A stretch of DNA of 34,645 bases from Candidatus Rokuibacteriota bacterium (GTDB lineage Bacteria > Methylomirabilota > Methylomirabilia > Rokubacteriales > CSP1-6). Below the pieces are notes generated by a model. That model had not been told where the DNA came from. It saw only the letters and a list, made by a program, of their open reading frames with translations, and did not search any database. The stretch covers positions 1 to 34,645 of the forward strand of contig JACQWA010000428.1 of the NCBI GenBank assembly GCA_016209425.1, written 5' to 3'. A program made the position numbers and the translations under genes. This document shows positions 15,947 through 20,424 of the stretch, piece after piece (within the stretch, counting starts at the first letter, position 1; each line of letters starts with the position of its first letter).

Positions 15947-16083
15947 TTGCTAAACCCCCTGGAAAATGCGGCATTCCTCTCAAACGCGTAACGGTTCTTT
16001 GACACTCCGTTATCCACATGTTAGCCACATCTGGTGGATAAATTTGCTTGATGGACCTATATTTTGTGTCAAGACAGTCTGGT

Positions 16084-16129
16084 CAGAGGAAAGTCCTCTG
16101 TTGACAGGGGTTTGGGCTTCGTCTACAGT
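16084..16129 (+). promoter_or_regulatory. Promoter plus adjacent inverted repeat upstream of DGQHR gene
   Basis: Perfect inverted repeat CAGAGGA-AAG-TCCTCTG (16084-16100) abutting TTGACA (16101-16106)-N17-TACAGT (16124-16129). Confidence 0.6.
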
Positions 16130-16150
16130 GGTGGTCCGGGTGGAGGGCCC

Positions 16151-17287
16151 ATGATCACCGTTCCGGCTCACCGTGTAAAGCAGTTCGGGCTCGAGTTCTA
16201 TCAAGCCTCATTTTCCGCCAAGGACATCGACCGCCTGGTGAAGTTTGAGGTCCTGGGTTACGCGGGAGGGCTGCCCAAAGAGCCCTCCAAAGCCCGGCGC
16301 GCTTCTCGGGCTCGTGTCAATTGGGAGATGCTGGAAAAACGGATTGGCGAGAGCGAGGCCGCCTACCAGCGCCCGGTGATCCGTCGAAAGATCGAGGAGC
16401 TCGTCTCGTACTACCGGGACTGCAAGGAGGCGGGGACCCTCCCGGCGATTCCGGGGGCCGTGATCATCACCTCGGAGAAGCGCTTCACCTTCACCCCCAT
16501 GGCGAGCCACCACGACCTGGGGTTGCTCCAGATTCCTGAGGAGCACGGCGTCCTCCGGGTCCTGGACGGCCAACACCGCCTCCTCGCGCTCCATGCCCTG
16601 ACCCAAGCCGGCGAGGTGCTGGCAATCGAGGTGCCGGCGGTGCTGTTCGACACCCTGGACGCTCGGCAGATCGTGGAGCTTTTCGTCACCATCAACGCCA
16701 AGCACACGCGGCTCAACCCCTCGCACATCGTGAGCCTCGCCGGCCGCAAGCTCTACCCCGACCCCAACCAGGCGCTGGCCCACGACGTCATCCGCTCGCT
16801 CAACGAGGACGAGACCTCGCCGCTTCATGGCGAGATCAAGATGCTCGGCACCGGGCGCGGGAGAGTTTCCCAGGCCCCGCTGGCCGAGGAGACCGTGGAT
16901 TTCCTGGGGACGGTGGAGAACATCGGGGGGAGCGCGCGGATCCAGGAGCTGCGCCAGGGAGCCAAACGGTTCTTCCTGAACTATATGAAGGCCGTGGCGG
17001 GCGTGTTTGCGGCGGCGTGGGCGGGCCGAAAATACTCAATCAAGACCGGCGCGGCTCTGCGGGCGTTCATCCGCGTCGCGCCGGACGTGATGGCGCGCGC
17101 CCGGGAGCTCAGGAAGGATCCCTTCGACCTTCACGCCATCCGCGAGGCGATCAAGCCATGGGGGACCCGGCTGGGTGACCGCCGCTTCGAGACCGAAGGC
17201 GAGTGGAGACAGAAGCTGGCGGGCGGCACCCGGGGAACGGTCGAGACGCTGACCAAAGAACTTCGCGACGCCTTGAAGTCATCCTAA
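16151..17287 (+). CDS. DGQHR-domain protein (DndB/DpdB-type, ParB-like superfamily)
   Basis: Literal motif LRVLDGQHRLLALHAL plus VELFVTINAKHTRLNPSHI; likely start MITVPAHRVKQFG. Confidence 0.88.
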   Translation: MITVPAHRVKQFGLEFYQASFSAKDIDRLVKFEVLGYAGGLPKEPSKARRASRARVNWEMLEKRIGESEAAYQRPVIRRKIEELVSYYRDCKEAGTLPAIPGAVIITSEKRFTFTPMASHHDLGLLQIPEEHGVLRVLDGQHRLLALHALTQAGEVLAIEVPAVLFDTLDARQIVELFVTINAKHTRLNPSHIVSLAGRKLYPDPNQALAHDVIRSLNEDETSPLHGEIKMLGTGRGRVSQAPLAEETVDFLGTVENIGGSARIQELRQGAKRFFLNYMKAVAGVFAAAWAGRKYSIKTGAALRAFIRVAPDVMARARELRKDPFDLHAIREAIKPWGTRLGDRRFETEGEWRQKLAGGTRGTVETLTKELRDALKSS

Positions 17288-17302
17288 GTTTCCCGAGTTT
17301 CC

Positions 17303-17980
17303 TCAAGATCCCCCTTCCGTCTTCTCTGGCCATCTACACCACCTCCGCAAAACGCACTCGGGGCATTCAGGCTTCCTAGCCGTGCATACCAACGCTGCGA
17401 AGTCGAACACCGCCCAGTTATACTCCCTGGCCCCTTTCTTTGGAATTAGCACCTGGGCTATTTCCCACAACCTATCGTCCGTGTGGGGCCGATTTTTCTC
17501 TGATCGAATTCCAAAATAGCGTCCCAGCATGCGCACGACGTTCGCATCCACAACCGCACGCCTTTGTCCGAGGGCAAAGCAAAGCACGGCGTTAGCCGCA
17601 TAGCGACCTACCCCCTTTAACTCCATCAAACCGCCCTCCGCGGCGGGAAGCTTCCCTCCGAATCGCGAAACGGCTATGCGCGCCATTTCCTTCAGATTCC
17701 GAGCCCGGCCGACCAATCCTAGGGACCAGACCGAGCGTCTGATTTTCCTCAACGGGGCCCGGGCCAATACCTCGATCACTGGAAACTCCTTCAGGAATCG
17801 ACGGTATACCGGCTCCACCTGCTTGGCCTGAGTCTTTTGAAGGAAGAGTTCAGCGATGAGCACCTTGTATGGATCTCGTGTCCGTCTCCATGAAAACGTC
17901 CGCCCATGCCGCCGGTGCCAGGCGAGCAGCGCCCTGCGGAATCGTTGACTTTCAGCCGAGGTGCGCCGTAGACTACGCAT
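17303..17980 (-). CDS. HhH-GPD DNA glycosylase with Fe-S cluster, Mig.MthI/MutY-like (candidate thymine-DNA glycosylase)
   Basis: FSWRRTRDPYKVLIAELFLQKTQ, HhH LKGVGRYAANAVLCFALG, VVDANVVRMLGRYFG, and C-x6-C-x2-C-x5-C (CTARKPECPECVLRRWC). Start could be 17980 or 18010. Confidence 0.88.
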   Translation of the reverse strand: MRSLRRTSAESQRFRRALLAWHRRHGRTFSWRRTRDPYKVLIAELFLQKTQAKQVEPVYRRFLKEFPVIEVLARAPLRKIRRSVWSLGLVGRARNLKEMARIAVSRFGGKLPAAEGGLMELKGVGRYAANAVLCFALGQRRAVVDANVVRMLGRYFGIRSEKNRPHTDDRLWEIAQVLIPKKGAREYNWAVFDFAALVCTARKPECPECVLRRWCRWPEKTEGGS

Positions 17981-18665
17981 CCTGACACTCGCCCATGGAT
18001 TTGACAGCATAGCGTTGGGAGCCAGGGACCGAATCCTAAGACTGCTCCAAGATCACCACCCGCAAGCAGTTTCCATCGATAAGATTGCCCGGGTGGCACA
18101 GATCCACGACTGGGCCCGCCGCATCAGGGAATTGGTTGCGGCTGGCTGGGACATCGAAGCGCTTCCTTCCCAGAGAGCCTACCGGCTGCGCGCGCAACAG
18201 CGAAGGCAGCCGCGAACACAGCAGGTCGGCATTACAGCTAAGCAGCGATATCGCATCCTCCACCGCGATCAATCCCGGTGTCGCCGCTGCGGCAGAACTC
18301 CGGCAGACGGAGTCAGGCTCGTCGTGGACCATATCATACCCCGCGACTGGGGTGGTTCGAACGACGACGAGAACCTCTGGACCCTTTGCGAAGACTGCAA
18401 TCTGGGGAAAAAGGCGTGGGAATCCGATGTCGACGCGGAAGCGATGAGAACGGTCCTGGCTCAGGTCAGCGCCAAAGCACGACTACGAGAATACTTTAAG
18501 CTCCGTCCCAGCCAAGTGCTCCGGAAGGAGGAACTCCAAATCGTCGCAGGAATTGCTGATTATCAGCGAAGGATTAGGGAGCTACGGCAGGACGAAGGAA
18601 TGAACATTCGCTCGAACTATGAAGATGATGAGCTGAGGCCGGGGGATTACCGCTTCATCCCGTGA
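17961..18665 (+). CDS. HNH endonuclease (candidate type II restriction enzyme) with N- and C-terminal winged-helix-like repeats
   Basis: CRRCGRTPADGVRLVVDHIIPRDWGGSNDDENLWTLCEDCNLGKK; GTG start at 17961 or a later start such as TTG 18015. Confidence 0.85.
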   Translation: MRRRLRILTLAHGFDSIALGARDRILRLLQDHHPQAVSIDKIARVAQIHDWARRIRELVAAGWDIEALPSQRAYRLRAQQRRQPRTQQVGITAKQRYRILHRDQSRCRRCGRTPADGVRLVVDHIIPRDWGGSNDDENLWTLCEDCNLGKKAWESDVDAEAMRTVLAQVSAKARLREYFKLRPSQVLRKEELQIVAGIADYQRRIRELRQDEGMNIRSNYEDDELRPGDYRFIP

Positions 18666-19716
18666 GCAATCTCTTCACCTCCTTCGCTATCGCACGTGCG
18701 AGTCTACACGGAACGGCATTCCCAATCTGCTTTGCCACTTCAATCTTCGAGCCCACAAAGATGAACTCATCCGGGAACGTCTGAATCCGGGCCGCCTCCC
18801 GGTGGGTGATCGGCCGATCCGCCTGTGGATGAAGATATCGGCCTTTCTCCGGTTTGAAGAACTCCGTTCGGATTGTAAACGCGGGCTGATTCCACCATAA
18901 CCTTCCGAAGAGATCAGTACCCCCCGATACTTTCCTGATCCAGCACTCAGGCATGAGCCGTTTCGGAAGGTCCCAGCGATTCCCTCCCTCGGGAATGCAG
19001 CGATAACGCTCTTTTGACTTTGGCGTCGGATTTCGCCCGATGTGCCAATTCTTGCCGTCCGGGTCCAGCGGGAGATCCCCGATGGCCTCCTTCAGAGTGA
19101 CCCATGGTTCCTTGTCGATAGAAAAAAGGTCCGCCGACTTCAGGTCGAAATGAGTTGGAACCGGGAGAGACGGGACCTTGTTCAGTGCCCCAATCACTAT
19201 GGCCCGCTTTCGGCGCTGGGGAACCCCGAAGTCCGCAGCATTCAGCACGTCAGCTCCAACCCGGTATCCCAACCCCTCCGCCAGCTCTCTAAAGCTTGCA
19301 AACTCAGCCGATTTCAGGAGTTCCGGTACGTTCTCCATAACGAAAACCTTGGGCCGCACCTGCGTCACTGCGCGGTAATAATGCCGCCAGAGTTGGTTTC
19401 GGGGGTCGTTGGGAATGTGGCTACCAAGTTGAGAAAACCCTTGGCAGGGGGGACCGCCGATGATTACCTCTGCCTTTGGAAACCTTCGAATTTTGCGGAT
19501 GTCCTTGCACACTCCATGGGGTCCTAAGTTGCTCTCGTATGTCTTGACGGCCCACTTATCTAAGTCGGCGCCCATGATGGGCTCAAACCCCTCCCAAACG
19601 AAACCCAAGGTGAAGCCGCCAGCCCCACAGAAGAGGTCTAGAAGACGAGGTCTCTTTGAGCTTGGTGACGGACGCGGACGCCGCTTGGAATCTGAAACCA
19701 TTCTGCCCCCCATCAT
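18655..19716 (-). CDS. DNA (cytosine-5-)-methyltransferase
   Basis: Motif I LLDLFCGAGGFTLGF, IV GGPPCQGFS, VI VMENVPE, VIII VPQRRKRAIVIG, IX REAARIQTFPDEF, X QIGNAVP; start at 19716 or 19701. Confidence 0.95.
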   Translation of the reverse strand: MMGGRMVSDSKRRPRPSPSSKRPRLLDLFCGAGGFTLGFVWEGFEPIMGADLDKWAVKTYESNLGPHGVCKDIRKIRRFPKAEVIIGGPPCQGFSQLGSHIPNDPRNQLWRHYYRAVTQVRPKVFVMENVPELLKSAEFASFRELAEGLGYRVGADVLNAADFGVPQRRKRAIVIGALNKVPSLPVPTHFDLKSADLFSIDKEPWVTLKEAIGDLPLDPDGKNWHIGRNPTPKSKERYRCIPEGGNRWDLPKRLMPECWIRKVSGGTDLFGRLWWNQPAFTIRTEFFKPEKGRYLHPQADRPITHREAARIQTFPDEFIFVGSKIEVAKQIGNAVPCRLARAIAKEVKRLLTG

Positions 19717-19926
19717 CCGGAAAAAACCACAACCCGTAGATAAAAGGATACACCGTTGGCCCACGATGTTGGGCAGAACACGGAGCTTGACTCATACTCA
19801 TCACTTGTTGGGTCCGTGTCAAGAAAAAAATTAGTACCCAAGGGGAGCTAGGGCGGCTAGTAGGTGATTGCTTCGAGACAGCCCAGAGGACCAGCCCTGT
19901 CGGGAACTGCGCGAGGCGCTCCGGAG

Positions 19927-20424
19927 CTAGCCCGTCGGCGCGTTGTCCTCCCACCTGAAGTTCGCCGCGAGGATCTCGTAGATTTTCTTCCCGCCGGGCA
20001 CCTGCGCGGTCACCGTCTGGCCGACCTCCTTGCCGATCAGCGTTCGGGCCAGCGGCGACATGATCGAGATCCTCCCCTTCGCCGGCTCCGCCTCGTCGGA
20101 ACCCACGATCCAGTAGCGGACTTCCTTGCCTTCCTGGTCCTGGAGGCGGACGGTGGAGGCGAACGTCACCCGGTCTCCATTGCTGGGGGGATCGATGATT
20201 TCGGCGTGGCCCAGCTTGGCCTGGAGGTCCTTGATGCGCCCTTCGATGAAAGATTGTTTCTCCCGGGCCGCGTGGTATTCGGCATTCTCCCAGAGGTCGC
20301 CGTGGCTCCGCGCCTCGGCGATGGCCCTGGTAATCCGCGGGCGCTCCTCCTTCTTGAGCCGCTCGAGCTCGGCTTTGAGCCGGTCGTAGCCCTGCCGGGT
20401 CATGGGGGTCCGCTGGGTTGCCAC
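19927..20424 (-). CDS. greA: Transcription elongation factor GreA
   Basis: [63 protein letters not shown] start. Confidence 0.93.

Follow-up and report, generated by a model that had tools for sequence, protein, structure and literature searches.

A locus on a 34,645-nt contig (JACQWA010000428.1) of Candidatus Rokuibacteriota, the whole of which is called the window here and to which all coordinates refer, is probably a three-gene, type II-like restriction-modification (R-M) island for 5-methylcytosine (m5C), placed at the 3' end of a DGQHR-domain gene and carrying a Mig-type thymine glycosylase in the slot of Vsr. A preliminary description of this DNA had proposed a type II-like m5C R-M system with built-in deamination repair of the Mig.MthI type, which is supported by the co-occurrence of such genes elsewhere and by residues of the glycosylase. 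It had also joined four genes into one DNA-modification locus; only three of them belong together, and the fourth, encoding the DGQHR protein, belongs to the host chromosome. Gene content, synteny, the empty site in relatives, gene families, partner statistics and specificity residues were all read from the sequence. The features are as follows.

16064-17287, plus strand: DGQHR-domain gene, an intact open reading frame (ORF) whose conserved part begins near the ATG at 16151; host gene and insertion target, outside the system
17255-17287, plus strand: left junction, substituted DGQHR 3' end (KELRDALKSS-stop), with lower-GC codons and a protein tail conserved against relatives
17255-19900, no strand: inserted island of ~2.65 kb and lower GC between the DGQHR gene and greA, recognised by the empty site in relatives and the GC dip
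17303-18010, minus strand: HhH-GPD Fe-S glycosylase, Mig/MutY-type (235 aa; alternative start at 17980)
17961-18665, plus strand: protein with an HNH domain between two winged helix-turn-helix (wHTH) domains, predicted type II restriction endonuclease (234 aa)
18655-19764, minus strand: C5-cytosine DNA methyltransferase, predicted GCCGGC-type specificity (369 aa)
19901-19930, plus strand: right junction, remnant of the original end of the DGQHR gene (RELREALRS-stop; 30 bp), overlapping the greA stop
19927-20424, minus strand: greA (PF03449/PF01272), a flanking host gene outside the system, with synteny in relatives

Insertion at the end of a conserved host gene

All four ORFs described earlier are intact, with matching coordinates and overlaps. 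The HNH and methyltransferase genes overlap tail to tail at exactly 18655-18665, and the glycosylase and HNH genes head to head, either over 17961-18010 for the longest glycosylase ORF or over 17961-17980, the interval first reported, if the second ATG is used. The family assignments were likewise borne out: the methyltransferase matches PF00145 (1.3e-69) over residues 41-364 and shows the catalytic motifs PPCQGFS and ENV in the alignment, the HNH protein matches PF01844 (2.5e-12), the glycosylase combines HhH-GPD (1.1e-13) with the EndIII 4Fe-2S motif, and the DGQHR protein matches TIGR03187 (3.2e-35) but stays under the DndB/DpdB equivalog cut-offs. GC content falls from a background of ~67% to 57-60% across the glycosylase, HNH and methyltransferase genes and is intermediate (~63%) in the DGQHR region.

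In close relatives the DGQHR gene and greA are directly convergent and in most lie no further apart than some tens of bases, down to a few; here the glycosylase, HNH and methyltransferase genes separate them. The right junction (19901-19930) encodes RELREALRS-stop, which is the DGQHR ending of three relatives (L058, L060 and L062), and can be aligned, in L060 and further relatives, to the 3' end of DGQHR and its junction with greA. The present DGQHR gene ends in KELRDALKSS-stop, a version of this protein tail with lower GC. This relic at the far junction, together with the substituted tail, indicates an insertion at the last DGQHR codons of a piece of ~2.65 kb that supplied its own form of the gene end. 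There is no recombinase gene in the ~2.65-kb piece. The idea that the DGQHR 3' end is a defence hotspot was dropped, as the longer DGQHR-greA intervals of other genera hold no R-M-like genes; their contents are common to those relatives, have host-like GC and encode metabolic- or transport-looking products, no family scan having been made of them.

These relations bear directly on whether the DGQHR protein and the R-M genes form one functional module of four genes. The gene adjoins them, and the DGQHR-family proteins DndB and DpdB act in other DNA-modification systems. However, 66 of the phylum's 95 sampled genomes contain it (E<=1e-6), covering 31 of 33 genera, with full-length matches 65-94% identical, whereas a relative of the methyltransferase (E<=1e-20) occurs in just three of the 95; dozens of the DGQHR-bearing genomes have no detectable methyltransferase relative, the gene stands beside greA in genomes without the R-M genes, and the relic of the insertion is at the opposite end of the island. 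A genome-wide search found no DndC; no Dnd or Dpd partners were noted in the window by the earlier reader, Dpd partners not having been searched genome-wide. Synteny and phyletic spread thus rule the gene out as a fourth member, and a four-gene module is scarcely credible. The orphan DGQHR-domain protein is encoded by a core gene of the phylum, better conserved than the adjoining greA (93% against 86% in L058 and 87% against 72% in L072), and it merits study of its own.

Nuclease partners and predicted site of the methyltransferase

The host genome contains no other close match to the methyltransferase. In the target-recognition region the enzyme shares 58-64% identity with NgoMIV-, HNH- and Vsr-linked methyltransferases, more than the 48-50% seen for the entire protein. 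When 85,000 species genomes were scanned with this region, at least 572 relatives were confirmed, with identities of up to 77% in the region, and the same scan of viral sequences gave 63 viral contigs; scans of genome and viral contigs with the HNH protein or the glycosylase singly gave nothing. Partner counts were obtained by local tblastn around the best 80 of at least 572 methyltransferase loci. Beside the methyltransferase in these 80 loci stand HNH-type nucleases (56 loci, 54 alone and two together with NgoMIV), NgoMIV (14) or NaeI (7), with none recognised in six; NgoMIV and NaeI neighbours were confirmed by PF09015 (8e-114) and PF09126 (8e-63). NgoMIV, NaeI and winged-helix HNH nucleases are alternatives in one slot beside this methyltransferase subfamily. 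In three loci (L122, L129 and L133) NaeI-family genes lie between the subfamily methyltransferase and Vsr.

Modification of a GCCGGC-type site is predicted for the island methyltransferase because both enzymes that accompany its subfamily, NgoMIV and NaeI, are GCCGGC enzymes. NgoMIV recognises GCCGGC (PMC4081073, a review in which the NaeI site is misprinted), and Caulobacter ScmA, an m5C methyltransferase with a Vsr-like partner, methylates YGCCGGCR (PMC12907096). Compared with the NgoMIV- and NaeI-type R-M systems that carry Vsr, the island shares the methyltransferase subfamily and the conserved target-recognition region, but those systems repair by Vsr and cut with PD-(D/E)XK enzymes, where the island has a glycosylase and an HNH protein. 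A different site, GTCGAC, is strongly under-represented in the sampled host relatives (L283-L302; G071 and G073), with 30 seen for 113 expected (z -10.4), and is less depleted in the host genome (71 against 94 expected, z -3.2), which suggests a GTCGAC-specific system in G071 and G073. Another genome of the phylum (L089; G033:C48, 7022-9173) has a 196-aa methyltransferase ORF that matches the N-terminal part alone of the island methyltransferase, followed by two HNH genes, possibly a decayed system.

For the HNH protein, our best inference is that it serves as the restriction enzyme for the methyltransferase site. The AlphaFold2 model (14-sequence alignment; mean predicted local distance difference test score 89) shows an HNH core flanked by a winged helix on each side, and the C-terminal wing contains a weak NaeI match (PF09126, 7.9e-5) under the Pfam cut-off. 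A Foldseek search with the model gave no match at E<=0.001; among the weak matches were an HNH nicking endonuclease, NaeI and the modification-dependent McrA and ScoMcrA. The closest relatives of the protein are found in L164 (41%), a locus of another phylum that combines HNH, subfamily methyltransferase and Vsr, on a Priestia plasmid (42%) and in a Blautia phage. The methyltransferase and glycosylase could alternatively form an orphan modification and repair pair, with the HNH protein a separate mobile or modification-dependent nuclease. Relatives of the HNH protein that lack a closely linked methyltransferase, and others in phages, are consistent with such a pair, as are the weak fold matches to McrA and ScoMcrA. 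Nevertheless we consider it unlikely, given that wHTH-HNH genes adjoin the subfamily methyltransferase in 56 of the 80 loci, where others have NgoMIV or NaeI, that the C-terminal wHTH weakly resembles NaeI, and that the tail-to-tail overlap with the methyltransferase gene is exact.

Several further arrangements of HNH genes were seen. The Blautia phage NatCom_27009 (L088, 726-3605) encodes a Vsr-like endonuclease, two HNH proteins and a DNA methyltransferase consecutively, like bacterial loci, and in Heliobacterium chlorum (L121, 5517-6610) two tandem wHTH-HNH genes adjoin the methyltransferase. On a Sphingomonas parapaucimobilis plasmid (L100), methyltransferase and winged-helix HNH genes lie tail to tail with a repair gene beyond, as in the island, but that repair gene is Vsr and the HNH protein has the order wHTH-wHTH-HNH rather than wHTH-HNH-wHTH.

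A predicted Mig-type glycosylase in the repair position

The island glycosylase is predicted to be a Mig-type G/T (thymine) glycosylase. Its best match in the PDB is 1KEA (Mig.MthI, described as a 'possible G-T mismatches repair enzyme') at 2.4e-50, followed by E. coli MutY at 9e-42. The protein ends just past the C-terminal 4Fe-4S Cys cluster and lacks the MutY C-terminal domain, although length is not diagnostic since the host MutY ORF, with 240 aa, is short as well. The host genome has MutY and Nth genes of its own besides the island gene, and this genome is the only one among the 95 with two MutY-family matches at E<=1e-25. Residues V45 and Q182 are key determinants of adenine specificity in E. 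coli MutY, and the double change A50V/L187Q shifts Mig towards adenine (PMC2714593). At these positions the island enzyme has Ala and Trp (the corresponding Mig residues are A50 and L187). In the sampled R-M-linked enzymes the first position is A, G, P or S (V in one) and the second always Leu or Trp, whereas the sampled MutYs have V and Q, bar two divergent ones. The Trp, in place of the Leu of Mig, is shared with three R-M-linked enzymes from Thermus plasmids. The island enzyme has a Tyr where Mig has Y126, but this residue recurs in MutYs of the phylum, and Tyr in place of the EndoIII Lys was discarded as a Mig marker for that reason.

One competing explanation is a divergent MutY, engaged in A/G or A/8-oxoG repair and present on the island by chance with no role in m5C repair. 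The nearest sequence is indeed a MutY of the phylum (49-50% identity), and the nearest named family in Pfam and NCBIfam is MutY, under the curated cut-off. One apparent relative (G094:C163, 50%) was set aside, having MutY residues and grouping with MutYs. In the tree, 23 MutYs fall on one side of a branch with 99/98 support and the island glycosylase on the other, but with the deep branches unresolved a grouping with MutY is not rejected by the approximately unbiased (AU) test (p=0.43), and it is consequently residues and context, not the tree, that carry the argument for a Mig-type enzyme. Against a divergent MutY stand the Ala/Trp pair at the adenine-specificity positions, Mig as the best solved match, the separate MutY that the host already has, and a gene position that is the slot of Vsr or Mig-type enzymes, so that this explanation is judged quite improbable. 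As to whether the glycosylase clusters with housekeeping MutY or Nth, a possibility raised at the outset, it lies outside the sampled MutY group and has Mig-type residues, even though the tree alone does not exclude MutY. It has also to be considered that the glycosylase itself restricts, as in the base-excision PabI family, since glycosylase restriction enzymes exist (PMC10273834). The PabI family, however, has the HALFPIPE fold, while the island enzyme is an HhH-GPD protein with Mig/MutY residues and the island already carries a nuclease gene; the probability of this scenario is very small indeed.

Besides the AU result, several observations weigh against an R-M island with Mig-type repair. 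No biochemical precedent was found for Trp as against Leu at the second specificity position, and no other locus was found to combine methyltransferase and glycosylase with precisely this HNH subtype. The nearest HNH subtype occurs also without an adjacent methyltransferase, on the Priestia plasmid. GCCGGC is not avoided in 204 kb of the host genome (observed/expected 1.05, against 1.04 in relatives), which thus bears no footprint of restriction over long times, so that the island may be recent, its restriction weak or the predicted site wrong. The site is absent from the 2.6-kb island, which by a rough estimate is not significant.

Possible exchange of repair enzymes and its meaning

Within 2.5 kb of the methyltransferase, 56 of the 80 loci have Vsr, four (the actinobacterial L126, L130, L134 and L139) have a Mig/MutY-type glycosylase and none has both (Fisher p=0.0067, for loci that are not phylogenetically independent). 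These four share the methyltransferase subfamily with the island and lack Vsr, but their glycosylases are 34-42% identical to that of the island and their nuclease partner is NgoMIV or a different HNH subtype. They include three-gene equivalents in other phyla, arranged as glycosylase-methyltransferase-HNH (L130 and L134) or as glycosylase, NgoMIV and methyltransferase (L126 and L139). The proposed co-occurrence was thus confirmed in other phyla for methyltransferase with HNH or methyltransferase with glycosylase. In a quick methyltransferase tree the five glycosylase-linked members, including that of the island, imply four changes, at least two of which are required by well-supported branches. 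Plasmid-borne Mig-type glycosylases of Thermus, Caldicellulosiruptor and haloarchaea also adjoin cytosine methyltransferases, which extends the pairing well beyond Mig.MthI.

The variant is of the known MthTI/Mig kind, with a glycosylase replacing the Vsr of its relatives. On plasmid pFV1 (L107), M.MthTI, R.MthTI and Mig.MthI likewise unite an m5C methyltransferase, a restriction enzyme and a plasmid-borne HhH Fe-S thymine glycosylase. The pFV1 methyltransferase is just 32% identical to that of the island, and its restriction gene is of the NgoPII type, for which GGCC is the site. The island differs in its predicted GCCGGC-type methyltransferase, HNH nuclease, chromosomal location and Trp rather than Leu at the Q182 position.

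Methylases that produce m5C are mutagenic to their host. In the scheme that follows, every enzymatic activity, the recognition site and the restriction role of the HNH protein are inferred. The methyltransferase would methylate cytosine in its own site, predicted as GCCGGC, on host DNA, and the wHTH-HNH-wHTH protein would cut the same site if unmethylated. Deamination of the methylated cytosine to thymine would leave a T/G mismatch, from which the Mig-type glycosylase, presumably monofunctional because it has Tyr and not Lys at the EndoIII lyase position, would excise T, after which the AP endonuclease, polymerase and ligase of the host would restore C. The glycosylase would in this way take the part that Vsr plays beside most relatives of the island methyltransferase.

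We lean, with some reserve, towards an interchangeable repair slot in one GCCGGC-type lineage, in which Vsr and a Mig-type glycosylase have replaced each other more than once within three-slot modules of a methylase, one of three nuclease types and one of two repair types. No report of such an exchange was found in the openly licensed literature. The glycosylases with the Ala/Trp combination would form a set outside the Mig and MutY mutagenesis that was found, and the MutY annotation of genes beside cytosine methylases is probably wrong. If the substitution is true, it would provide a natural experiment to ask if selfish R-M systems need to bring their own deamination repair, and would also test incision by Vsr against base excision by Mig in each host.

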